Assembly: GCA_013368375.1 (NCBI GenBank)
Contig: JAACJP010000018.1
Location: 558,001-622,000 of the forward strand
From: Tricholomella constricta
Taxonomy: Eukaryota > Basidiomycota > Agaricomycetes > Agaricales > Lyophyllaceae
Length of the DNA: 64,000 bases
Direction of reading: 5' to 3'
A program made the position numbers and the translations under genes. This document shows positions 27,061 through 64,000 of the stretch, piece after piece (position 1 is the first letter of the stretch; each line of letters begins with the position of its first letter). The notes under the pieces were generated by a model. It made no database searches. It worked only from the letters and a program-made list of their open reading frames with translations, and was not told the DNA's origin.

Positions 27061-27350
27061 TTCCTGATGTACTTGACAACTGCAAATTAAGCACCCTTGA
27101 GGATTGTAAGCAGGATCGGCCTGGATTGGCGTCGTCGATAGACGTAGCAAGAGATTCTGTTAAAGCCGACGCAAAGAGCTGAGTTCTGCTTCCGTTCCAG
27201 ATCCTAGCTCGGTTGGGCTTGTACTGAACCTATGAATCGTACACCATTCCGAATGGTGGGCATGAAAACAATTTGAAGGAGGTGGAGAATCTAAGAATTC
27301 CGAAGGAGAAAGCAGGAGGGGGTGTCGCTTTGGGTAGCAACGGGGTTGAT

Positions 27351-29763
27351 TCCCGCTACTTTAGTAGTGGGTTTTTTAACACCCTTCGCCCTTGGAAACT
27401 TCGTGGCTCAGGTCGCACTACTTGTCACGTGTTCACGTGTTATCGCGTCATTTTCGCGTCATTTCGTTCTATTGCATTCCATCTCACTTTCGTTGTTTCG
27501 GCTCCTTCCGTGTCTGAACTTCACGCTCCTTGTTTCAGGAGCTGAAAAATTCTCTTCTCCTCCTCGCGTTCGCTTCCCCATCTGCTGAATATGCCTTTTT
27601 TGTTTTATGTTGATGGAGCAGCTTATCCAGCTCTGTTTGACGACACTCGCTTGACCACTGTTGTTCCCTTCTCTGTCAATAGCGAATCCAACGCTCCGTT
27701 ATCCGTCGCCGTCACTTCCACCTGGGGCGATTCCAGTTTCACCTGTGTATTGTCTGTCACAGGCGCGTCCGTCGAAAGTCTGCTTCTTGGGCTTGACTGG
27801 TTTTCTCTTTTTCGGGAGTGTCAGTTGGCAGATGGGTTTTGGCCGCCTTCGTCGAAGACGTTTTCGTTGAGGACATATTCCAGTCAGTTTCGTAAGTCAG
27901 TTTCGTCTTTGAAAATATATTTGCTGATGGCGCTCAGGGCGTGCATTACCTCTATCTGAACCTTGTTTGTTGCCCTCTGTACTTGAACATCGTGGAGTGG
28001 AGGATACATCCTCGTCTTCATGCTTTGTGCCTTCTGCGTTGCAGAGCGTTGTGTCTGCTTTTGCGGATCCTTCGTCTTCCGCATTTGTCATGGGTCTGTT
28101 TGATTCTGCCGTGTTAGATACCACTTTGTCTGCTCACGGTTTGGATTCTGGTAATTCGTTTGTGCATAAACAGCAGATACTGTCTCATCATGTCATTTTT
28201 GGTTTGTGTGCTGGAGGCACTGGATCAGCTTGTCATGCCATCGCTGGATCAAATTCTGTGCGTCAGTTGCGGCATCAGATATTATCACGTCTGTTGGACG
28301 CTTTTCAAAGTCCGGTGATTCCGGTTACTGTCCTTCGTTCTGTTGCTTCTGGTTTAGGTCGTTATGGTGTCATGTCTGATTCTCGGACCGGGGTTTTGGC
28401 TTTCATGGAGAAATTGTTGGCTGAGTTCTGCAAACCTAATAATCCAGATCTATACCGTGTTCTGCGACTGTCTGGGGGAATTACCAAGCAAGACCTCTTG
28501 TTGATTGCAGCCAGTCATGGCATTTCAGTTGCTGGTAAGGTGTCTGAAATTCGAGACATGGTTTTTGACCATCTTCTGAGTGGACGATGTTCGATGACTG
28601 TATATCCGGAAGCTTGCATCGACATTAGAGACACCTTCAGGGGTGATGACGGGACATGTTCTTCGGATGTACTAGTTGGACATTTGTTGAACAGTGTTGC
28701 ACCTACGTTGGCTCTCAAGCCCTTGCGGTGTCTATTGTTGCAACACGGTGTTGCTTTTGACCGGACATTTGGCTTGGCAAGGTTGAGAAAAGTTGCTAGG
28801 TCTCATGCGCATACCTTGTTGATAGGTAAGGCTGTGCGTCGTAATCCTGAGATTGTGCATAATAGGTCGCAGTCTCGTTTAGAACATGTGCGTCAGGAGT
28901 GGCCTTCTCTGATATCTGGTAGTTTGAAGGACAAAGTTAGTCGTTTATTTCGAGAGTCGACTTCCAGCGATGCTTTGCGCTGTGCTCCATGTGCGTCCTG
29001 TTCAAGAGATACTCTGTTGTCTGAGTTGACAAAAGTACCTGTCAAAAGCATCAATTTACGCGTGTTGCGGTGTTCTGGAGTTGACGTTTCTGTTGGTTCA
29101 CATCCAGTATCTTGTGAAGACGACAGCAGAGAAGACAGCGGTGAAGATGAATTTCGTATGGATGTCGATGATGCTACCAGTGGTGATGTTCCTCCCTCCA
29201 TGCAGAGGTTCCTGCCTTATCAGACAGGGCCTTTGCGTGGTGTCATGGTTGATCCTCGAGGTGTGGAAGATGACACTTCCGGTGATCTGAATTTGTCAAT
29301 ATGTAAACCGTGTTCTCTGTCTTTGACTGCAGGCAAAATGCCTAAGTTTGCATTGGCGAATCGGATGTTTTTGGGTGCGGTTCCTGACGTCCTTCGAGAT
29401 TTAACGCCAATGGAAGAGTCTATGATTTCCTTGTGTAGAGCAAAATGTTGGATCGTGCAGTTGCGCGAGGAAGATTGTGATCGTGAAGACCCGTTTAAAC
29501 AGCGAGGTTTGAAAGGGCATTGCATTGTTTACCCTCAAGATCCTGGGGTTATTGCGTCTATGCTCCCTCCTTCGATTGAGGACATTGTCACCCCAGTGTG
29601 TGTCATATTCATAGGTTCAAAGCCCCCTTCTCTGCAGTGGCTTCGTGATAAGGCTAAGCCTTTGTCTGTGCGTGCAGACAGAGTACGGGCAGCTTTGATA
29701 TGGCTCAAGTGCCATAACCCGTTGTATCGTGTCATTGACATTAATGAATCTGTCTTGTCGGAA
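27351..29763 (+). mobile_element. 5' fragment of a Helitron-type element
   Basis: It starts near TTGAT/TCCCGCTACT (27351), where a short imperfect hairpin lies, and carries the N-terminal Helitron ORF (DUF6570 region). The relaxase (Rep) and Pif1 helicase parts that normally follow are absent. At about 29763 the reading diverges from the expected family and the sequence becomes the 3' part of an antisense gene. The element is therefore truncated at its 3' side. Both boundaries are estimates. Confidence 0.6.
27352..27371 (+). other. Imperfect hairpin at the putative Helitron 5' end
   Basis: CCCGCTACT and AGTAGTGGG are inverted copies with one mismatch, around a TT loop, at the proposed start of the element. 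Short terminal palindromes are known in Helitron/Helentron relatives; its role here is inferred. Confidence 0.4.
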
Positions 29764-29787
29764 ATTGCAGCACGGTCGCACTGTTGA
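27591..29787 (+). CDS. Helitron N-terminal protein, DUF6570 domain, truncated
   Basis: Two exons, 27591-27891 and 27938-29787, join in phase (GTAAGT donor, CTCAG acceptor). The N-terminal exon includes ESLLLGLDWFSLF, a remnant-like retropepsin core seen in this family. The central part is a poorly conserved region of cysteine/serine-rich repeats of about 80 residues. The C-terminal part is strongly diagnostic: CKPCSLSLTAGKMPKFALAN, LTPMEESMISLCRAKCWIVQ, YPQDPGVIASMLPPSIEDIV and VRAALIWLKCHNPLYR. In complete elements this precedes Helitron-like Rep and helicase domains. Here it ends eight codons after INESVLSE. No internal stop is present, so decay is limited to the truncation. Confidence 0.75.
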
Positions 29788-29789
29788 GC

Positions 29790-32700
29790 TGCCTGCACAT
29801 TACGCCTTGTTGCTGCACTGTGAACACCAGTACTGACCCGACCACCTGCACCACCTCCGCCACCACCTGCTCTACCTCCGCCTCCACCTCCACCTCCTCC
29901 ACCTCCTCCTCCACCTCCACCTCCTCCTTCTCCTCCACCTGCACCTGCACCATCTCCACCTCCACCTCCACCTCCATCACCTCCACCACCACCTCCACCA
30001 CCACCCTGCTGCTGGCGTCGGTAATGCCGCTGCCAGAAATTAAGGCGGCCGCGCATATCACGCTGCAGCGCATCACTACCACCACTGGCACCACTACCGC
30101 CACCTTGGCCACCTTGAGTCCCCATGGAATCTACAAATTCGCTTGGTGGCTCAAACAAACCCAGACCTGGAAGCATGGTTCCATGTAAATGACTAGAATT
30201 GAAAGACCTTTGTATATGTCAGCACAGGTACAACAAACATCCTATAGTCACTCACCAACACAAGTTAGGTCTCGTACGCCAATAATAGCCCCAGGATGGC
30301 TGGCAAAATGACCAATCTCGATCATGTCGACTACCCCACCAGCGTAATTGACAGCACAGTCCCCAGCCAACATCTTTATCAAAATGTTGGGGTGCGCAGT
30401 AAGAGGCACAGCGAAATAGGTTGTGACCGGATATTCCCAGTCGATCAGCCTCTTCAGATGCGTTAAGCATTCGAGAGTGCATAGGGGGAGCTGCAAAATT
30501 GCACACAGACATGAGAAGCATGGTGTCCTAGTGGAGAACTCTTATTCCGTTAAACAGTAAGGTCAGTTAAATCAAAGAACATACCTCTGCGTAATCAATT
30601 GCCCTGTCCAGCCCAGCTGAGGACTCAACTTCAAAGGAGGAATAGAACCTATAGGTATCTCCTGTAGCACCACCTGTTGGCTGCCGACTGCCAGTAGCCG
30701 TCATTCCTGACGTCTTTCCGATCTGAAATTTCCGGAACTGCTTTCCACGTAAGAGCTTGCTCTCGTCTGTGAACTCAATAAGTAGACTAATACTCTTGAA
30801 GTCATAAAAATGAATTTACTTTGCGAGTGAGCCTCATGGTCTACCATGACCTGATGTACATCTGGATGAAAGGCATTGTAATAGGCCCAGTCAATCTGGA
30901 ATCTTTAGAAATAGTGTTTACTAGTATGATAACAACTTGAACACATACCACCCGTTTTTGTCCAATGCATATCTGCTCAGTGGGATCCTGCTCATTAACT
31001 TTGAATATTGGTATGAAGAAGAAATCGCCATCTTCAGGTGTGACTTCCTTGTTACGCTTCCGTTTCTGCTTGTCTTTTTTGGTTGGGGGTGCTGGTGGCA
31101 CAGAGTGGAGAGGATCGTCCTCAGAGTCATCGGAAACATACCACAGCATGCGCCCACACCGCTGAAGTGTTTGCTCATCAGCATCAAGCTCCACCAAGCC
31201 TAATACTTTGGCATCGTGGATTACATGGTCCTGCTCAACGTGGAAGTCAGTTGAATTACAGACATTCAAATAGGATTCATTGCCTTTTTCGATGTTTTCA
31301 GCCGGTCCGGTGCCAAACTAATGCCATCTTCACGTTTGACAACCATGTCTTCTTCGGAGACGTGTGAAGTGTAGAAGATACGGGTGCACTGCTTGTTCTT
31401 GGGTTGATCGATACATTTCATACACCTTTTCAGCTGTAGCAATAGTTACAAGTGTGAGGAAAGCCTGAGCTGGAAAACCACATACCTGAGGGTCTCGTGT
31501 CCTCAAAGCAGGATTTTCTTGTACTTTACCCGACCATTCCATGTCAGAAATCTTTCTCCCATCCGTCAAGTGATGTTGCTGCACTTCCTGCAAGCGGTGA
31601 TACTGTAGTGTTCGCAGGTAAATATGGGCAACATGATTGCCTGCGATCTTCAGCTCCCTCCACTTTCTTGCTGTACTTTCAATGTTGCCCTTTCTGAGAA
31701 TTGCCTTCTTGAACAAGGAGTAGAAGTCACTGAGTGCCTTCACCGATTTACCAACCCAGTAGACACAGCACGCTGAGTCCTGAAGACCTTGGCCCACCCA
31801 TCGCCAGGCTCTGATAAACGTCCCTTGACTGAGTGTAAAGTATACAACCTCTGGGACCACCAAATGTGGCAGTAGGAAAGGGTTCTGAAGCAGATGTTCC
31901 ACCATTTTGTCTGCGCTGGCTTGATCTACCACAAATTTTGTTGCCGCACTCTAGAATATCAATAGCACATCAATAAAGAGGAGCCCAGAAGTGCTACAAC
32001 ACTTACCTTTTGTTCCGTAGGTGTAAAAATGAGGAGCACCGATTCCCATCCTTCGGAAATCGATTCAGGACACCAATTCATCAATAGCTTTAGAAGCCGA
32101 TCCTGGATGCGCGTGAACCTTGCTAAGGCCTCTGCGTGATGATCACCTCCACGACTTAGCGATGACAAGTAGGAGGGATCAATAATCTGCTTCATCACGT
32201 CGTACAGCTCTGTAACCTTGCCAGGACAATCAGCAAGAAGAATTAGATAGTGCAGCCCTCAAAATACCTTTAGTGCATGCGTCCACACAACTTCGTCATA
32301 ATTGTTCCTTCGAAGGCCAGACATGTCTTGAAGAATGAGTCCAATAATGGACCGTGCACCAGCTCGATAAGCGGAATCCTTAGGCAGAAGAAATTTATCT
32401 TGGCCTTTAGGCAAGGCTCCAAGAATTCGTTTCAAATGTTCAGCGGAAGGCGAGGATTTCTGCCTCAAGGTTAGGTGTTTATAAGTGCGAGAACAAAGGA
32501 ACACTTACCTGGGTTTGATATCGAGCCGATTGGAGCCCAGGAAACAAAGAAAGGAGAGTCAGAGCGTACATATCGCACTTGTATTCAAGAGACTCCTTAT
32601 CAAGCTCTTTCTTGGGTTCCGGTCCCTTGGCTTTGAGAAAAGATTTCTCCGAGTAATCCAGCAGGCTTGGTTCGTTGACGGAGTCCCATAGGGCACTGGC

Positions 32701-33275
32701 TTCATCTTCCAGTCCCAAATCGTCCACATCAGGCAAGGCATTAAATTGCTCATCCTGGCATGTCTCCTGCACAAGGTGGTGCTACGACAATGTTAGGAAG
32801 TGTTGATATATAACAGCAAGAAGACACACCCGGTCAACAGCTTCTTTTGCAAACAAACTGAGGATGTTGAGCTTTTCAGCCGAGTTTTTGGAGTCAAGCA
32901 CCCGAAGGACATAAAGATACAGCAATATCTTCAGAGCCCAGTCCATCTCGACACCCAGAGTAGAGGGAGGTAACCCGAGAACGCTTAGGATCCAGTTGTG
33001 TAGCTTGGCCCACTGCAGGATCTTAGCCAAAGTCACCTGGAAGAAGATCCTACTAGTCTACTTACAGTCTTGTAATCACTGAAGTGATCAGTCAAGCGAA
33101 CTTGTGGATCATGAAAGGTAGCCCGAGTAATTCTCTGGCTAGTATTGATGCTTAGCCGTTTTTGCAAATCCAGAGGCAGGCCAAGTTGTACAGGGGGTGC
33201 ATCTAAACTACTGAGAACTGCCTCAGATGGTGGTTGTACCCTTAGTTCCTCTGTATACAGAAACTTGCTGGACAT
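29790..33275 (-). pseudogene. Large transposon-associated gene with 2OG-Fe(II)-like C-terminus
   Basis: The gene starts at ATG 33275 (MSSKFLYTEELRVQPP) and runs through about 11 exons. Donors and acceptors fit between KT/VTLAKILQWAKLHNWI, VDR/HHLVQETC, TQ/KSSPSAEH, LK/VTELYDVM, EQK/SAATKFVVDQ and RDPQ/LKRCMKCID. The middle is helical and of unknown family. A CxxC...C segment (CMKCIDQPKNKQC) follows. The C-terminal part reads IDWAYYNAFHPDVHQVM, CAPQHFDKDVGWGLCCQL, WSFCQPSWGYY and CHLHGTMLPGLG. An HxD plus a distal HxHGT fits the metal ligands of a 2-oxoglutarate/Fe(II) dioxygenase fold, but this is inference. The exon 31433-30952 is 482 nt where phase requires a multiple of three. The frame moves from ...VVKREDGIS to FGTGPAENIEK near 31316, so one T seems lost. 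The 3' end runs into a Gly-rich repeat and then the Helitron junction. Confidence 0.5.
29850..30010 (-). repeat. Glycine-codon repeat (CCACCT/CCTCCA-type)
   Basis: On the plus strand this is a degenerate CCACCT/CCTCCA array of about 160 bp. On the minus strand it encodes a nearly uninterrupted polyglycine tract in the C-terminus of the transposon-associated gene, downstream of FEPPSEFVDSMG. Confidence 0.8.
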
Positions 33276-33671
33276 GGTGGTCAAGAGCAGAGATGATCTA
33301 TTAATGATTTTGATCTATCCAACAGATCAGTCGGTCTCAGACTTTAGGGTTAGCTCTACAGTGAATGCAACAGTTATAACGCGATCGTTGAAGGATGTTC
33401 CATTATGTATATACTATAGGTAGTTGAAGTTCAAATACATCCAAACTATGAAAGGAGGGTTTTGGGGGCAGGGGCCGTCGCCGGGGACCCAGGCGATTCA
33501 CAGTTACGTGAATTGCTGCTCACCGCAATATTCATCCATCAGTAATAAGTACATTGATTTGATCAGACACCACTTCAACTTCGGAAGTCTAATGAGCCTC
33601 CCACAGCATCGGTTACACTACTCCTGCTTCCTAACGCTCAGTCCTCATTATATTGCTCTGATGTCGGGAAA
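33276..33671. other. Spacer between transposon-associated gene and OGDH fragment
   Basis: About 400 bp with no supported gene. It would contain the promoter of the minus-strand gene. A G-rich patch lies at 33455-33495. Confidence 0.4.
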
Positions 33672-34769
33672 ATGATCAACGCTCCCGTGCTTCACGTCAA
33701 TGGAGACCATCCCGAAGGTAGAATGGATATAGTATCTACGCCATTGGTTCTAACGAGTCGTCCTTTATGTAGACGGCGTTCGCGCCATAGATATCGCTTT
33801 CCGGTACCGCAAATACTTCCGCAAGGTACGTGAGAGGTTTCTGATATCGGTTCATGCTCACACGTTTTTAACAGGACATCATCATCGACCTTCTTGTATG
33901 GTGCATTCCCCAATTAACGTTTGTAATGATCATATAATGCTGATACATGCTATCCACTTGCGACTGAATCTCCTCCCGATAGTCACAACGAGCTCGACCT
34001 TCCCAGTATAACTAGTCCACTGATGTACGAGAAGATCAGCGCCAGGCGTTCAGTTCCCCAGATCTACGAGGAGAAGCTCAAGGTATTGTCCTTCGACCCG
34101 ACCTCTCGAGCGCAAGCTAACTCGCGTTTATAGACCGAAGAAATTCTCAACGAAACCGATATCACTGAAGTCTGCACCGCCTACAAGTCGCATCTCGAAG
34201 CCGAGCTCTCGAAAGTTGGCTCCTTCGTCCCCGAGGCGTCCATGCTGGAAGGCCAATAAAAGGGAATTGTCTGGCCCGCGAGCAAGGAAGCCGAGTTCGA
34301 TCCCGTCACTGGTGTCGATCAAGAAACGCTCACGAAGGTCGGGAAAGCGAGCGTCGCCGTTCCGGACGGTTTCGTATGTGTGGTTTACTGGTCGACAGGC
34401 ATTGTGGCTAACTGACTGACGCTGGTGAGCAGGAGGTTCATTCTAAGCTCCACCGACATATCAAGAATCGTATGAAGAGTGTTGAGACTGGCAAGGGCAG
34501 AGACTGGCAAGGGCATCGACTGGGCTTCAGCTGAGGTTCGTCTGTATTATATGTGCACGATCCTCTCTATAACTTATTTGATTGGAACAGGCAATGGCAT
34601 TTGGCTCCCTGATGCTTGAGGGTTGTGATGTACGCATTTTGGGACAGGATGTCGGCAGAGGAACCTTCAGTCAACGTCACGCGATGTTGGTCAATCAACA
34701 GACGGAAGGTGTCATCGTTCCTCTCAACGACGAGCTCCAGGCTCCTGGGACACTCGAGCTTGCAATAGT
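33672..34769 (+). pseudogene. KGD1: Captured fragment of 2-oxoglutarate dehydrogenase E1
   Basis: Segments in order match the C-terminal half of OGDH E1: INAPVLHVNGDHPE, GVRAIDIAFRYRKYFRKD, IIIDLLVW, HNELDLPSITSPLMYEKI, YEEKLKTEEILNET, EASMLEGQ-stop-[61 protein letters not shown], and [20 protein letters not shown]. Introns are retained, so it is a genomic DNA copy, not a retrocopy. A TAA at about 34257-34259 sits where the family has Trp. A GGCAAGGGC(A)GAGACT block is duplicated near 34490-34515, and part of the copy after IIIDLLVW is scrambled. It stops abruptly at about 34769. A functional copy of this essential gene must exist elsewhere. Confidence 0.82.
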
Positions 34770-34999
34770 AGGTTGACCGACCTTGTGACATCTGAGGTGT
34801 TGGCTGAATGGTATGTTGGATAGGTTCACTGAGTGAGATGGCTGTGCTTCGGGTAAGGAAGAGTCCAAGACACGGTAGGCAGAGGGGTGCATAAATGAGA
34901 TAATACAGGCGCCAGGCGCCGCATAAAGAATGAAACGATAGGGCATATAAGTAGAATGTTGCCTATTCCATCTCACAGCAACTGAAGCAGATATCCGAC

Positions 35000-35269
35000 T
35001 CAGTCCTCCGTCGTTGTCGTATTGAGTGCAGAAAAAGTCAAGATGAGATATAGAATGAGCATCGCGATTGCAATGAGGCCCAGAAGGACTTGCTGCCCGA
35101 GCGACAGCTCGGCCGTCCACTGTTTGAAGCGCCACTCCAAACAACGAATGTCTTGCTGGGGGACGGGTTGGTGGGGTGGAAGGGCGGGCGAGGGCGTGGT
35201 GGAAGTCGTGGGGTAGTCGTTAGGTGAGGGTGGGCCGGCTGGGGCGATGACGACGTCGGGGACGAACAC
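35000..35269 (-). CDS. Small ORF, proline-rich with a C-terminal TM helix
   Basis: The minus-strand frame ends with WTAELSLGQQVLLGLIAIAM and LILYLILTF, a convincing membrane helix, then SALNTTTTED and a stop. Upstream it enters the 162-bp repeats, each unit of which reads FAQTRIVLVVGAVVIAPAGPP plus a Pro/Thr linker. It may be the terminal exon of a tail-anchored protein whose N-terminal part lies in the repeats, or chance reading. Frame is not kept across the whole array. Confidence 0.25.
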   Translation of the reverse strand: MFVPDVVIAPAGPPSPNDYPTTSTTPSPALPPHQPVPQQDIRCLEWRFKQWTAELSLGQQVLLGLIAIAMLILYLILTFSALNTTTTED

Positions 35270-36790
35270 GATTCGCGTTTGCGCGAATCGCCTCAGGCAT
35301 GCGTGCTGGGGGTCCTAAAAGAAAGGTTGGTGGCTTGGAAGGGCGGGCGAGGGCGTGGTGGAGGTGGTGGGGTGGGCATTTAGGTGGGGGTGGGCCGGCT
35401 GGGGCAAAGACGACGGCCCCGACGACCAAAACGATTCGCGTTTGCGCGAATCGCCCCAGATATGCGTGCTGGGGGTTTGGTGGGAGGAATTGGTGGGGTG
35501 GAAGGGCGGGCGAGGGCGTGGTGGAGGTGGTGGGTCGTCGTTAGGTGAGGGTGGGCCAGCTGGGGCAATGACGACGGCCCCGACGACCAAAACGATTCGC
35601 GTTTGCGCGAATCGCCCCAGAGATGCATGCTGGGGGTTTGGTGGGAGGAATTGGTGGGTTGGAAGGGCGGGCGAGGGCGTGGTGGAGGTGGTGGGGTCGT
35701 CGTTAGGTGAGGGTGGGCCGGCTGGGGCAATGACGACGGCCCCGACGACCAAAACGATTCGCGTTTGCGCGAATCGCCCCAGGCATGCGTCCTGGGGGTC
35801 CTTATGGAGGGGTTGGTGGGTTGGAAGGGCGGGCGAGGGCGTGGTGGAGGTGGTGGGGTGGTTGTTAGGTGGGGGTGGGCCAGCTGGGGCAGAGACGACG
35901 TCGCCGGGGACGAACACGATTCGCGTTTGCGCGAATCGCTCCAGAGATACGTGCTGGGGGTCCTTATCGAGGAGTTAGGGGGGTGGAAGGGTGAACGAGG
36001 GCGTGGTGGAAGTGGTGGGGTAATCGTTAGGTGAGGGTGGGCCGGCTGGGGCGGAGACGACGGCCCCGACGACCAAAACGATTCGCGTTTGCGCGAATCG
36101 CCCCAGAGATGCGTGCTGGGGGTTTGGTAGGAGGGGTTGGTGGGGTGGAAGGGCGAACGAGGGCGTGGTGGAGGTGATGGGTGGGCATTAAGGTGGGGAT
36201 GGGCCAGCTGGGACGGTCACGACGGCCCCGACGACCAAAACGATTCGCGTTTGCGCGAATCGCCCCAAACATGCGTCCTGGGGGTCCTTATGGAAGGGTT
36301 GCTGGGTTGGAAGGGCGGGCGAGGGCGTGGTGGAGGTGGTGGGGTGGGCATTTAGGTGGGGGTGGGCCAGCTGCGATGGTGACGACGGCCCCGACGACCA
36401 AAACGATTCGCGTTTGCGCGAATCGCCCCAGGCATGCGTCCTGGGGGTCCTTATGGAGGGGTTGGTGGCGTGGAAGGGCGGGCGAGGGTGTGGTGGAGGT
36501 GGTGAGGTAGTCGTTAGGTGACAGTGGGCCGGCTGGGGCGATGACGACGTCGGGGACGAAAACGATTCGCGTTTGCGCGAATCGCCCCAGAGATGCGTGC
36601 TTGGGGTTTGGTGGGAGGGGTTGACGGAGTCGATGGACGGGCGGGGCTTCAGTGGAAGTGGTGGGGTGGTTGTTAGGTGGGGGTGGGCTAGCTGGGACAG
36701 AGACGACGGTCACGACGACCAAAACGATTCGCGTTTGCACGAATCGCCTAAGATATGGGTGCTGGGGGTGCTAAACGAGGCCTTGAGGGG
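35050..36790. repeat. Tandem array of about ten 162-bp units, each with a perfect palindrome
   Basis: The palindrome has arms CGATTCGCG and CGCGAATCG around a TTTG loop. It occurs at 35269, 35432, 35593, 35755, 35917, 36079, 36241, 36404, 36563 and 36725 (start positions). Spacings are 163, 161, 162, 162, 162, 162, 163, 159 and 162 bp. Only the last copy has a mismatch in an arm. Between palindromes are conserved blocks: GCGTGCTGGGGGT, GGGCGGGCGAGGGCGTGGTGG, GGTGGGGT, and GGTGAGGGTGGGCCGGCTGGGGC. The unit is strongly G-rich on the plus strand. The high identity implies recent amplification or homogenisation. Confidence 0.95.
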
Positions 36791-37019
36791 TGCTGGGGGG
36801 TGTTGGTGACGCGTAGATGGTGTGGAAGGGCGGGCGAGGATGCGAAGGAGGCGGCAGGGGCTCCATTTGCGGCCTGGACGTTGCTGGCACGCCTAGGTAG
36901 CGAGTGGTAAATTCAACCTGGACTCCAAATATCATCAGCGGTGCAATAAAATGTGAGGATTTAGCAGACGTACCCTTCCGACTGTGGATGCATGTGCACA
37001 CACCACCAAGTAATGAAAT

Positions 37020-38605
37020 AAATAAAAACTGTATGCTTTCGGGGCAGCATACGCGTGTAATTGGGACCTAAACCGCAACTTATACAACTTATACGGAGAA
37101 GCCTTCACCTTGGTGCCACCCCATAGCCATGGAGAAAGAGAGAGCGCAGGGCGCTGCCAGGTCATGGTGTCGGAAGCCATTGCCAAACATATACAAGCAA
37201 AGGAGATCAGATTCCGGCGACGCTCACCTGTCCTGGATCTGCAGCAGATTCTGCTCCTAAAAGGACCAGAATTGATGCTGAGGAACAGCCTGGTATGTTT
37301 CCACCTCATCAGGTCGGTATTTTCTTGCTGATGAACTCAGTTACCAATAGCATAGAAGATCAGATCTACACTACCTGGGCAACTACTGTTTCTCTCTGGC
37401 CTGAGGTGCAGGAGCTATGTCCAAATGGTACTCTGTTTCAGCAACTGGAAAGTCTCCAAAACCATGCCGCGCGTTACTTCTTGGTTGATCATGTTCCCAC
37501 CTTCGATACTTACTGCCGTGTGGATGAACTGGAAGGCTACATCCAACAACTAGATGCAGAGGCTGAGCATCATCACAACTCCTCAGCCCACCCGGACCTT
37601 CATGCTAGCTTTACTGTTGCTGCAATTCTACCTATTACGCTGCTTCAAATCAGATTTGACATGGCTACTGGTCAACCGGGTCTACTGGATCAGGTTATTG
37701 ATCGTGGTATAGCTGCAGCTGCGTCGCGTATGTCAGAGCTCTCTGAAAGGGAGAAAGAGGTTGTCAATAGCCTTGAGCATTTGCGGGACGGCCAGTACCT
37801 CAACGACGCAGTTATCAATTTTATGGTCGAACAATGGGCCAGCGCCACAGATCCTAGTATCAAAATCAGTGATACATGGGCACCCACCACCCATCTACTA
37901 TATCTGGGACAGGATGCACCTGCGGGTTCAGCTTTCGGAGAGCCAAGGGAACAGGTTGGGCAGATCACTACGGATACTATTAAAAAGAAAGGTCTTTGGG
38001 GCTCTGAGGTACGTTTTGCAGATTGCAGATATACCTCTGATAACAAAGCCTGACCGAAGTCATACCAGGTCAATCCCCCAGATACCTGGTCACGTCTCTT
38101 CATGCCTGTTCATAGAGACGATAAGAAGCATTGGGTGGTAGCTGTGGCAGATTTCTCTGAGCAGAAGATCACAGTCCTCGATAGTTTACGCGGAGATGAT
38201 GACTATGAACGCAAACTATGCAAGGTAAATCTTATTGCACTCCTGGCTGTTTGAATGAAGAGCTGAAGTCATTGTGCAGATCTTTTCTGATGTCCTCAGA
38301 GCCCTATGGGTCCACTATGATTTGACAGGTTTGACTCTGACACCAGTCATTTCAACTGTATGTTCTGAATCACATTCTCATACACGGTTGATTACATACT
38401 GCTACTCTAGGTCTCCAAGCAGAGTAATCTGACAGATTGCGGTGTACATGCCTTGGCCTGGATGGAGCATTTGGCACGTGGAGGACCGCTTCCACAAGGT
38501 CGTCGTGACTTGCTTCCCTTCACAAACTTGCGGAAGGGTCTATCAGCTTTGAGTTACCGCCTATACTTCGTTCATCTGATTTTACAGTCCCTCAAATTAC
38601 TTTAG
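37020..38605 (+). CDS. Ulp1-like (C48) SUMO protease, transposon-associated
   Basis: The frame is open from about 37020 without an ATG, so the first exon is not defined. An intron at about 37292-37339 joins DAEEQP to VTNSIEDQIYTTWATT. Further exons give EKEVVNSLEHLRDGQYLNDA and VINFMVEQWA at the start of the peptidase domain, then TWSRLFMPVHRDDKKHWVVA with the catalytic His, ITVLDSLRGDD with the catalytic Asp, and VSKQSNLTDCGVHALAWME with Gln and the catalytic Cys. The triad is intact. The stop is at 38603-38605. A second open frame (38535-38709, FELPPILRSSDFTVPQITL) could be an alternative last exon. Ulp1-type proteases cleave SUMO from proteins, and many eukaryotic DNA transposons carry one. 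It faces away from the large minus-strand gene, with the OGDH fragment and minisatellite between. Confidence 0.8.
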
Positions 38606-39791
38606 ATACCATACATACCAATGAAGCTTATATAAGCTACAAGCCTTTGAATATACTGATTGAACTTGTGAACATTAACTCGACTCAGAAGAACATCCAC
38701 TGCTTGTAAGTAGTGATTATTTAGGTTTTATCTCTATCTCAGCCTGTTTATAGGTGATTATTTCCGATGGATGCTGAACTGATCCTCAATTTGACCCAGC
38801 AGGTGAGTATTCCTTGATGCTGGCGAGGCATTTGCAGTTGACAACTTCTTATACAGCATAGGGCGCTCGTCCCATCTGAGGAGCTTGAGACTATTCAGTC
38901 CTCCTTGCGTGAAATGATTACCTGCTTGGAGGGGCCTCACATCTTTCTGAAGTAGTAAGTCAAGATTTTTTCTCCTTTTGTCTTCGATGTTCATGATTCT
39001 GACGTCTGTTTCCGTTAGTTGCTGGTTGTCGGCTTCCACAGCAATTCCGTAGACAAAATGTCGGCCATCCGCTGGGATGGGACTCCTCGCCGTTAGATGC
39101 TCTCAATCCTTTGCTTTGTAACCTTCGACTAATTATTACTGGTGAGTGCACCAAACGAGACGCTTCGACAACGATATATATATTTACCCATTCAGCCCAC
39201 GATCACGTCGCCCGCGTTCCATCTGTGCACATACTCTTCTCTCGCCAATCCATTACTCGAAAGCTGCCACACATGCGTACAACGTCGTTTCCAGCAATCC
39301 AAGCGGAAATAGGTCTTTGACTGCCAGGAACTTGGAATTGTTATTGATGCCAAGCTGTATGACGTACTGGAGGTGGAATATGAGGAGTGGTGGAGGAACA
39401 AGTTTTGTGTGCTTTAGCTTTGAGTTGGCCTGTCAAGGAATGGGTGAATGACCTGTTCGCCTACGTTGTGGGCACCCGTCCAGCTCTTTTTTCCCCCCGG
39501 CGGGAACGGGGTTAGTGTCTGTGTTTGGAATTGGATATTGGTACTACGCCATGCGAAGACAGACGGTTGTATACCTCTCTCCCTGAAACCATGTGCAGTG
39601 TCTGATAAAGTAGATCGACAGATAAGCAAAGTGCATGATATCATGATGAGTTCTGCTCTGTCATGACATTTCCCGCTCGCAATACTTGATCATCCAGAAA
39701 CATTATAGATCAAGGTGTTTCGTCTTACTTTTGTGGACATATAAGACTCTGCCTTCAAAACCTCACATGTATATGTATTATGAATTTTGAT
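38606..39791. other. Right flank of the mobile region, no supported gene
   Basis: It holds a short spliced-looking frame at 38768-38957 (MDAELILNLTQQ joined to HRALVPSEELETIQSS) that may be a further exon of the Ulp1 gene or another element gene. A TA-rich patch lies near 39175-39185. No terminal inverted repeat could be assigned by eye. Confidence 0.35.
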
Positions 39792-43187: not shown

Positions 43188-44131
43188 TTTTTTCCTTAGT
43201 CTGGGACTCATTGTGTCGTTGAGGCGGACTACTTAGGTGCCGTTGACGTCAAAAATACTTAATGTATTGAATAGAGGTTGTTTACATGGCATCAGTAATG
43301 CGGATTACTTCGATCTCCTTGACATCAAAAATATTTAATGTACTTACCGAATATACATCGCGCGACGTCAGTAACCCGCACTACTTAGGTGTCCTTGACA
43401 TCGATGATACTTGATGTTGTACATGTCTAGTTGCAAAGTAGCGGGCTTTGCGGTCGTCAGAGCGCCCTTCCGGTGTTATTTCTAAGCCACCATGTGGTCA
43501 AGTTTCAACGGTCCCGTTTCCGATGAAGATCGCGGATCCGTTGTTTTGAGAGACTCAAAGAGAGTCAGATTTTAGTGCCAAGCTTTCGCCAATCGCAGTC
43601 AATGAAGGTTTTTTCTTCCTGCTGTGGATCCACTGGGCGTTGCCGCGTTAGGCTGCGTTGGAAGATTGGTACACAGCTAGGCTTTATTGTTATCGCTGAT
43701 ATCGCGCTGTCTGAATTCGGCTTCGGAAATGCCGGCCATCTAAAATTGGAGCGACTTGAAGGAGCGCGGGTAATACATCCATCCATGGTAGGCCGTCGTC
43801 GTCGGAACCTTGAATAATAATCGAGCTGAGAGACTGGAAGTCCGGTTCGATGAAATCGTTCCATTTGAGCTGGGAGTAGAGGCTAGTAGAGGCTCTACAT
43901 ATTACAATTTGTAATGTGGTGGTTATCAAATTGTAATTCGGTCCCTGAAGCGCGTCCGGACGCGTCTTAACGAGGGGCTTTGTCAGCAAAGTTTGAGTGC
44001 GAACTTTACTTACGTCCATGCGGTTCCCGAACTCCTTGACAGCTTGACTCACATACCGGCGCTACATTTCATATAGAAAGGCGACCTGGTTAGAGTACGA
44101 CCGCTCAATTACACGCAGGCCGTCCAGTTCT
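43188..44131. other. Intergenic region with short degenerate repeats
   Basis: After three degenerate repeats (separate entry) there is an uninterrupted 120-codon minus-strand frame at 43690-44052 (LKWNDFIEPDFQSLSSIII, DDDGLPWMDVLPALLQV). I cannot assign it to a family or extend it; it may be an exon of an unrecognised small gene. The last 100 bp are the 5' flank of the ABC transporter. Confidence 0.35.
43222..43425 (+). repeat. Three degenerate repeats of about 75 bp
   Basis: Copies begin near 43228, 43303 and 43378 and share ACTACTTAGGTG...CTTGACATCAAAAATA.TTAATGTA with substitutions (for example GATTACTTCGATCTCC in the middle copy). Confidence 0.6.
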
Positions 44132-50936
<6,805 letters not shown>

Positions 50937-61787: not shown

Positions 61788-63749
61788 TCATCCCATTGTG
61801 CGAGACCTAAAGGGGAGATCACTCGAGAAACAAAGTGGCATTCTGTTACAGTCAAGGCTTAATGGCGGGTCGAGACGATGGGGAGGACAAGTGACGCGGC
61901 CTGTACGAGTAGTAGTAGCAGGGGGAGGTACATAGACAGAACAAGGATTTTGTTTTTTCGTAACAGGGGATTTGGATCGTGCATGGTGTCGTAAAAACGA
62001 TGAAGTGGAATTGCGTACCGAATCCTGTTCACAACCATCTACCGAGGCTGACATGTCTCCTGACGTGACGCTAGTCGTGCCGGAGTGCGATATGTGAGAC
62101 TCAGCCATAGAGAGGGGAGATTCGGCAGTTGATTTGTCTTGATTCACCGCTTGTGTAGGTACAGTAGTGTCTGGGATAGTAGGTACAGTATCAGTAGGAA
62201 GAGAAAAATGTTGTTGTAACATAACTGGGTGAGGTCTTGGAGCACAAGGATGTCGGCAATGGAAACAGTCGATGATTTTGTTGGCGGTGGTAGGGATGTC
62301 AGAGAGAGGAATCCAGGAGTTGTCGGTGTCGGGTAGGGAAGACCAGTGGACAAAATACTCATAATGGTGACCTATTTTGTGAGAGTCGAGAATATGGGAA
62401 ATAGATGGGGGAGAGTCGACGAGTTGGAAGGGTTGTGGAGAGGAATGTGGGTGGAATTCAGAGGGATCTTAATAAGGTTCCAATAGGGAGGTGTGAAAAA
62501 CTGGATGTAGACGAGAGAGATAGAATGGTAGACGTAGCTGATATGATTGTAAGCCGATTCATTGAACAACTGGGAAGGGACCGTGGCGTCAATGATCCAA
62601 TTTAAGTGACGGTCGAGTTGTTCGAATATTCTGGCAAAGCAACCACACCAGTTGGTCGGGCGCATAAGTTGGAGAAGGGAGAACACGAGTGTTGAATATT
62701 TTTTGCTTGACGTTCTTGCAAATACTGAAGTTTGGCACAAAGTTCAGCATGAATCTGATCTAAAAGTTGAGCAAGGTTTTCAGCAGCGGGGACGTTAGAA
62801 AGATTGGAACATTTTGGAGAACAGGTAGGGTAGAAACCTAAGTTGGTGAAGAAGGGCAGAGTGGACGGTTTGTTGGGGTCGAAGAACGGGATAAGAAGTG
62901 AACACGTGTTTGAGATGTTTGAAGGAACTGTGCGCAGACGTAGATGGGAGATCCTGTTGGATGGAAACGAAATAGCGAAACTGGAACATTCTTGGCATAT
63001 TTGAGGAATCTTCCTGGAGTTGTAACCAAGATCTTGGGTTTGGGCATAGACTTGTCGAAGATAGAGCGACCAAAGCCAGTCCAGTTGACGAAAGACTTGA
63101 GATATTGTGTTGACGTTGGAGGTGGTTGTGGTGTTGGTGATAGTGCTGGTGCTGAAGACATAGGGGTGTTGGCAAGACCGAAGCCTAAGCCAGCCATGGT
63201 AATAGGACATGCTTGAATTGAGGTTTGTGTAGTAATAGGCCGTGTAAGACCAAAGCCTTTAGCGGGGACCGTAACCAGAAAAGTGTGCTTGAGATTGCAG
63301 CAAGAAAGAGTAAGATCGGGGTTATCCCTATCGATATGTGGATTGTGGCAGCAAAGCCAATCCAGACCTAGAATAACAGGGAAAGGGACAGAAACTATGC
63401 CTAGTGTGATGCACTTGGAGTGTTTGTCCACCGTTAGTTGTGTAATTACATCAGAGGAAACGAGTCCAGAGGCAATGGGTCAGTTGTCCACTGCTATTAT
63501 TGGGATTGGTAATTCCTTTGCGCATCGTGGCAGAGAATGTCGCATAGCGAAGACGTCCCAAATACAAGATGCCAAAGCACCTGAGTCGACGAGGGCAAAA
63601 GTCTTGACGGGTTTGTGATTTGGAAAATTGAGCGAAACCAAAATAAAGAAATGGTCGGGAGACGAGGCATTTGTATCTGTAGGAAAATTATAACGAGGTG
63701 CGTTGATAGAGCTAGAAGGCCTGTGGGTGCTGTACACAACAACAAAACA
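61788..63749 (-). mobile_element. Decayed, internally deleted Ty3/gypsy (chromovirus) element
   Basis: Read from right to left: a retropepsin domain with FALVDSGALASCIWDVF (63640-63590), continuing to VPFPVILGLDWLCCHNPHI; then integrase C-terminal text (NVPAAENLAQLLDQIHAEL, GPFPVVQ, SRLHPVFHTSLLEPY); then a chromodomain (YEYFVHWSSLPD, SWIPLSDIPTTANKII) and a Ser/Pro-rich tail to 61788. Reverse transcriptase, RNase H and the integrase core are absent, so more than 2 kb has been deleted. Breaks: TGA after AVDN near 63480, TGA after FPVVQ near 62565, TAA after LLEPY near 62470, and frame changes around 62700. LTRs were not found by eye. Confidence 0.82.
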
Positions 63750-64000
63750 ACTAACAGCTATAGGGGGCGAGAAGTGTTAAAAGTTCCCAAACACGCGAGT
63801 GTGCAGGGCTAAAAGGATGGTTTGGACGAAGGTAAAGACGACCCGACTCGATATTAGTCGAACCGACGACGATGCGACGAGCGCGATGGTATGCGATAGT
63901 TCCCAGCTGGAACTGGTCGGCGACGCGACTGTTGATGTCGGAGGCGCGACAACGAGACGAACGATGCTAAAACGGAGAACTCACGGGTTCGGGCGGCGGT
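63750..64000 (-). other. Right edge: unassigned open frame
   Basis: The minus strand is open for about 60 codons (RVADQFQLGTIAYHRARRIV, VGSTNIESGRLYLRPNHPFS) without an ATG. It may be the gag region of the retroelement or an exon of a neighbouring gene cut by the window. The sequence is rich in CGACG. Confidence 0.25.

Follow-up and report, generated by a model that had tools for sequence, protein, structure and literature searches.

A palindrome-bearing minisatellite between divergent genes of an apparent integrase/Ulp1 transposon in Tricholomella constricta

Repeated protein-binding motifs in a DNA transposon have been described for CACTA/Spm (En), whose subterminal repeat motifs have a GC-rich portion and are bound by TNPA, a second element-encoded protein that can also regulate its own activity (PMC2613891). 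The tandem array considered here, located in a 64,000-nucleotide stretch of the Tricholomella constricta genome (the window), resembles this arrangement in that it consists of repeated motifs with a GC-rich portion that apparently belong to a DNA transposon. Unlike the CACTA/Spm repeats as described in that account, however, these lie between divergent genes and are not known at termini, the unit is 162 bp long, the integrase is of the rva_4 type, and binding is only putative here. No CACTA transposase was named by Pfam scans of selected reading frames in the region.

An integrase together with a Ulp1 or OTU domain characterizes Ginger1, which that account reports from four animal species only (PMC2836005). 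Our element is similar in combining an integrase-type DDE transposase with a Ulp1 protease, but the protease domain of Ginger1 is C-terminal in the transposase, whereas here Ulp1 lies upstream of the integrase, the host is a fungus, and the core best matches rva_4 (PMC2836005). IS3EU/GingerRoot elements, in turn, are eukaryotic DNA transposons with an IS3/IS481-like integrase, as is apparently the case here; we found neither TA..TA termini nor 6-bp target duplications of their kind at our loci, and the main text of their description contains no mention of “protease” (PMC10045372). With no shared outer ends seen among its copies, the element resembles these systems without fitting the full definition of any of them.

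Tandem arrays are also described from rolling-circle elements, namely the oyster HINE/Helentron elements, which carry satellite-like tandem arrays and have a palindrome at an element end, as do the Helitrons discussed below (PMC7492417). In the oyster, the array is central and the elements are non-autonomous and dispersed over the genome, whereas here the array pieces are seemingly secondary components of Rep/helicase-encoding Helitrons, and the main array lies in another element (PMC7492417). The maintenance of hairpins by template switching, which bears on one of our explanations, is treated elsewhere (PMC8794818). Among the papers listed in our literature searches, none had a title or abstract opening that describes the present array.

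The window array and its palindrome

The array consists of ten units with a mean pairwise identity of 83% in the ten-unit alignment. The 22-bp palindrome CGATTCGCGTTTGCGCGAATCG is formed by two 9-bp arms (CGATTCGCG and CGCGAATCG) around a TTTG loop; when up to three mismatches were allowed, no match to it occurred in any of 100 dinucleotide-shuffled windows. The array and its surroundings comprise the following features:

33476..33517, plus strand: detached unit remnant with a diverged hairpin, on the gene A side (model positions 108-149; nhmmer E 0.11, a weak match)
33519..35150, plus strand: inserted DNA between the remnant unit and the array, starting about 3 bp past the remnant hairpin
35160..36769, plus strand: tandem array, 10 units of about 162 bp (TRF, unit alignment)
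35269..35290: palindrome of unit 1, exact
35432..35453: palindrome of unit 2, exact
35593..35614: palindrome of unit 3, exact
35755..35776: palindrome of unit 4, exact
35917..35938: palindrome of unit 5, exact
36079..36100: palindrome of unit 6, exact
36241..36262: palindrome of unit 7, exact
36404..36425: palindrome of unit 8, exact
36563..36584: palindrome of unit 9, exact
36725..36746: palindrome of unit 10, one mismatch (G-to-A in a CpG)
36805..36866, plus strand: degenerate eleventh unit without the palindrome (nhmmer E 0.0019)

These results agree with the original prediction, made by inspection of the sequence, in the number of units and in the period, as TRF reported 10.0 copies of 162 bp at 35160-36769 and the starts of consecutive palindromes are spaced 159-163 bp apart. 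The predicted start at 35050 was too early, the array beginning at about 35160. The palindrome is perfect in nine of the ten units, as the prediction also stated. A period divisible by three was also claimed, which is true of the mean (162 bp) but not of the individual units of 159, 161, and 163 bp; a single reading frame through the array is therefore unsupported, and a coding role was rejected. The predicted G-richness of one strand was borne out (46.5% G), but the quadruplex behaviour suggested along with it gained little support, since six quadruplex motifs are barely above the expectation from composition (mean 4.1 and maximum 9 in single-base shuffles).

The palindrome stands out from the remainder of the unit by its constancy. 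Only 1 of its 22 columns is variable in the ten-unit alignment, versus 79 of the other 140 (Fisher’s exact test, 2.9e-6), a permutation scan for the best 22-column stretch anywhere in the alignment gave p = 1.5e-4, and CpG transitions are rarer within the CpG-rich palindrome (1/120) than outside it (20/220; p = 0.0016), although all three tests assume that columns and units are independent, an assumption that tandem units violate. The mean difference between units is 0.009 in the palindrome and 0.193 in the spacer. Invariance extends to the loop and to a single base on either side of the palindrome, beyond which it ends sharply. Single-stranded DNA folding of one unit gave structures stabler than shuffles on both strands (z -3.9 and -5.2), an excess expected of any such palindrome, and the predicted fold places the 9-bp hairpin beside a second hairpin of 6 bp. 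In the detached remnant, 8 of the 9 hairpin pairs are formed.

The DNA inserted between the remnant and the array is composite. Its first part, of about 1340 bp, is a host-gene fragment, 89% identical to C18:497295-498673 (about 93 kb off; C18 is our label for the window contig). The fragment is thiamine-dependent dehydrogenase/transketolase-like (Transket_pyr, E 5.3e-5, below the cut-off and in one of two pieces), and we take it to derive from oxoglutarate dehydrogenase. The last part, of about 300 bp, is 76-77% identical to C18:495527-495877, C32:7506, and C11:970198, and is possibly a separate repeat.

Flanking genes and related loci

The array lies between two genes that diverge from it, gene A on the minus strand and a Ulp1-like protease gene on the plus strand, the latter followed by an integrase remnant:

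30305..33303, minus strand: gene A, multi-exon (second copy on C14, 96% identical in DNA)
33302..33478: upstream flank of gene A, common to the C5:177k (C5c) and C14 loci
37127..38602, plus strand: Ulp1-like protease gene (Peptidase_C48) in several exons or pieces (Pfam E 1.1e-11, joined reading)
38842..38946, plus strand: N-terminal remnant of an rva_4 integrase, cut off after 35 residues (80% identical to the C5 integrase, E 6.6e-9)
C5:177830-178816: second Ulp1 copy, both copies scoring above the Peptidase_C48 cut-off

Gene A matched no Pfam family above the cut-off, none of 7995 scored candidate proteins matched it at E <= 0.001, and a search of the PDB returned one match with E 0.75. A 155-aa piece of gene A and the Ulp1 reading each have two matches in the genome. 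At C5:177k, the 5′ end of gene A is followed by a degenerate array, Ulp1, and an rva_4 integrase (E 6.5e-36, joined reading), which represents a DDE integrase core; this locus carries an inversion. At the C14 locus, gene A is flipped relative to the array, the array is damaged, there is no Ulp1 match, and an insertion of about 2.9 kb (C14:201085-204020), with the ends CAGCCGTTTGCA/TGCAAACGGCTG, lies upstream of gene A. The three loci are truncated, rearranged, or interrupted, and no shared outer ends were seen among them. We infer that they are the remains of a single low-copy transposon, and the array very probably comes from between the divergent genes of this decayed integrase/Ulp1 element. 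The array is not characteristic of the integrase family, given that an integrase relative on C16 (59% identical, one of six other integrase loci, the rest being on C10, C32, C51, C11, and C2) has no array in roughly 4.7 kb upstream and no Peptidase_C48 match on its contig. Ulp1 occurs at nine loci in the genome; of the seven besides C5:178k and C18, none has an integrase match within 80 kb.

The flanking genes, as far as their few differences indicate, show little sign of recent constraint and appear nearly neutral. Between the two Ulp1 copies, dN is 0.027 and dS 0.026, a ratio of about 1 (291 codons), and between the gene A copies on C18 and C14, dN/dS is roughly 0.3 to 1 per exon (seven exons, limits by eye). 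The divergence of the units (19% and more) is far above that of the genes (about 3-4%), suggesting that most of it predates the split of the copies or that the array evolves faster.

Several other repeats and genes were noted in and around these loci. A CCACCT-type simple repeat occupies window positions 29842-30005, between gene A and the Helitron frame described below, and reading frames at 44000-48400 resemble, by eye, an ABC transporter gene of several exons, which is unrelated to the array. A repeat of about 1 kb with short TGAT..ATCA-like ends is present within the C14 array (C14:195533-196579) and at C5:548414-549461, and a relative of it begins at the right end of the window (63698-63998). 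The palindrome was considered as an insertion target and rejected as such, the 1-kb insert of the C14 array sitting beside a palindrome rather than inside it.

Sister arrays and Helitron-borne copies

Searching the 44-Mb assembly (118 contigs) with the unit returned at least 30 matches, located on C18, C14, C5, and C9:

C18 (window), C14:195-197k, C5:177k, C9:577k, C9:591k, C9:812k, C9:826k, C5:514k, C5:563k: unit-bearing loci

A half-palindrome of 15 bases with at most one mismatch matched 24 times, 23 of them within the array loci or their edges, and a control pattern did not match; the lone match outside the family, on C26, looks like chance. The exact palindrome was not found in viral_contigs or in genome_contigs (bacteria, archaea), collections from which sequences close to the genome studied here may be missing.

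Within the sister arrays, C5c and C14, the palindrome is not more constant than the spacer. On the basis of 19 full units (17 of 36 alignment rows being excluded as truncated, interrupted, edge units, or near-identical Helitron copies), the mean difference in the palindrome versus the spacer is 0.409 versus 0.361 in C5c (3 units) and 0.447 versus 0.357 in C14 (4 units), compared with 0.136 versus 0.259 between two Helitron units. Between arrays, the corresponding values are 0.259 versus 0.356 for the window and C5c, 0.282 versus 0.313 for the window and C14, 0.073 versus 0.221 for the window and the Helitrons, and 0.374 versus 0.323 for C5c and C14, the palindrome thus being the more different part in the last pair. 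Among the three Helitron left ends, the palindrome is also unprotected, with 2 of 22 columns variable versus 9 of 924 elsewhere (p = 0.025). Palindromes close to that of the window occur in one C9 unit (exact), in another C9 unit and two C14 units (one mismatch each), and in one C5 unit (two mismatches), and the window form looks ancestral in the family. No covariation beyond shuffles was detected over 25 units (the score was matched in 292/500 shuffles, and the number of paired cells in 57/500), and a conserved RNA-like structure was rejected for that reason. As judged from these alignments, the palindrome is not a conserved feature of the whole family and appears largely worn away in the related arrays; its strong constancy is peculiar to the window array, as the divergence of the palindrome in the sister arrays equals or exceeds that of the spacer.

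The remaining copies of the array reside in Helitrons. The following features in the window are related to these elements:

27349..27371, minus strand: Helitron right-terminus hairpin motif, exact
27928..29787, plus strand: Helitron-type N-terminal reading frame (DUF6570, Pfam E 2.8e-39)
36979..37229: block of ~250 bp beside and into the Ulp1 reading frame, also present in the Helitrons (93% identical)

Two 15-kb copies on C9 (811648-826750 and 576543-591966) are 99% identical over their aligned pieces, and the C5:514k/563k pair represents a third copy, split by other DNA. The carriers are identified as Helitrons by the main frame of the C9 copy (1939 aa), which unites DUF6570, Helitron_like_N, and a PIF1 helicase in one protein. 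The three copies have both ends in common, and a hairpin lies close to one of them. The left 38 bp are present in 27 of 29 matches to the left end, and 14 of 17 matches to the right end extend as far as that end. No obvious target-site duplication was seen by eye at the three copies. With the exact right-terminus motif and a frame whose DUF6570 domain is also found in the full Helitron protein, window positions 27349-29787 apparently represent a truncated Helitron adjoining the element. In one C9 copy, the left terminus occurs twice, at C9:811650 (the outer end) and at C9:812678 (just inside the array), the inner one within about 10 bp of a hairpin with an inverted loop. A frame inside this Helitron (C9:816488-816904) resembles by eye a piece of a kinesin motor and was possibly captured.

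The array pieces near the two Helitron ends are oppositely oriented and share 97-98% identity, so one appears to have been copied from the other. Of the 27 Helitron_like_N matches, just 3 lie in array-bearing elements, and those belong to one lineage. The absence of the array from most Helitrons and the presence of the Ulp1-side flank in the same copies argue for capture by Helitrons, and the array probably entered them together with captured DNA. That inverted pieces occur near both ends of all three copies, and that satellite arrays are described within Helentrons (PMC7492417), would fit a subterminal array native to the Helitron and used by its Rep/helicase, but the restriction to a single lineage, the co-carried Ulp1-side flank, and the apparent copying of one terminal piece from the other make such an origin very improbable.

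Whether the arrays are linked to the Ulp1 gene and the minus-strand gene had been proposed as a check, and each listed locus does adjoin one or both of these genes or sits in Helitrons carrying the Ulp1-adjacent block, rather than being dispersed without a link to them. Both flanking genes had been considered transposon-associated; this applies to the Ulp1 gene, with its Peptidase_C48 domain and the integrase remnant after it, but the minus-strand gene has no Pfam family or protein match to place it. The palindrome had further been described as less variable than its spacer, and as looking selected or gene-converted: in the window array it is indeed less variable and appears to have been kept, but in the C5c and C14 arrays it is not less variable, and conservation does not extend to the family.

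Explanations for the constant palindrome

We slightly favor the interpretation that the palindrome was a protein-binding or hairpin site of the element in its active period, to which we assign a probability of about 0.42. The 162-bp unit would then be a control segment multiplied in tandem, and the palindrome a site for a dimeric DNA-binding protein or a hairpin used in transposition or regulation. Gene A, which has no recognisable domain, might perhaps encode the putative binding protein, although this is a guess. Selection would have kept the palindrome while the element was active, and with the later decay of the element, the sister and Helitron-borne arrays would have lost, or would be losing, it. 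Ongoing selection across the family is not supported by the divergence of the sister arrays and the nearly neutral flanking genes; any selection on the palindrome would, given these near-neutral genes, date from the active phase of the element. A more specific version, in which the long internal, iteron-like array of perfect palindromes served the element both as operator and as hairpin site, the gene A protein recognised it, and array length set the activity of the element, seems rather improbable.

A close rival, doubtful on balance but to be taken seriously, is homogenisation centred on the palindrome, in which extrusion as a hairpin or cruciform would provoke template switching as well as short conversion and exchange among units. 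The palindrome would thereby stay uniform in a long array while being of no use to the element, and it would also be where breaks and joins occur. A number of edges do fall at hairpins: the right array of C9 ends directly after the TTTG loop, a C5c/C14 remnant begins roughly at TTTG, the opening array piece of C5c/C14 begins close to the left arm (weak nhmmer matches, E 0.025 and 0.0085), and both the host-fragment insert, about 3 bp past the remnant hairpin, and the inner Helitron end, within about 10 bp of one, start close by. However, this list was compiled by hand after the fact (with 4 of 11 edges, P is 0.05; with 5 of 11, it is 0.01), and other edges lie away from the hairpin: those at either end of the window array, on the outer side of the left Helitron arrays and the inner side of the right ones, at C5b, and one in C14. 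Similarly, of 39 marker pairs with the palindrome between them, 34 failed the four-gamete test, versus 94 of 199 others at 25-70 bp, but only three markers lie to the right of the palindrome, and the incompatible adjacent marker intervals (9/33) are spread over the whole unit. A recombination hotspot at the palindrome is therefore not established. An inversion of the loop, from TTTG to CAAA, in a unit common to C14 and C9, and the position of the only altered window palindrome in an edge unit are also as expected under homogenisation. On the other hand, conversion tracts should blur the sharp edge of conservation, none of the ten units shows a compensated change in its arms, and the loop is constant although template switching does not protect it.

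A neutral minisatellite, in which the window array retains part of an old mixed array and its units share one palindrome variant by chance, would involve no function and no special process. The free degeneration of the sister arrays, the near-neutrality of the flanking genes, and the damage to arrays by insertions and inversions are consistent with it, but the same ten units differ by 19% in their spacers and by 0.9% in the palindrome, and the column test (2.9e-6) and scan permutation (1.5e-4) disagree with it as well, with columns treated as independent; we consider it unlikely. Overall, we lean slightly toward the past binding or hairpin site over conversion and a hairpin hotspot.

One tandem array is thus found in two settings, intergenic in an apparent integrase/Ulp1 element, and apparently captured, and inverted, inside a Helitron. 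As the palindrome and the spacer behave differently between sister arrays, the family allows selection and hairpin-driven homogenisation in minisatellites to be compared in a small natural test.
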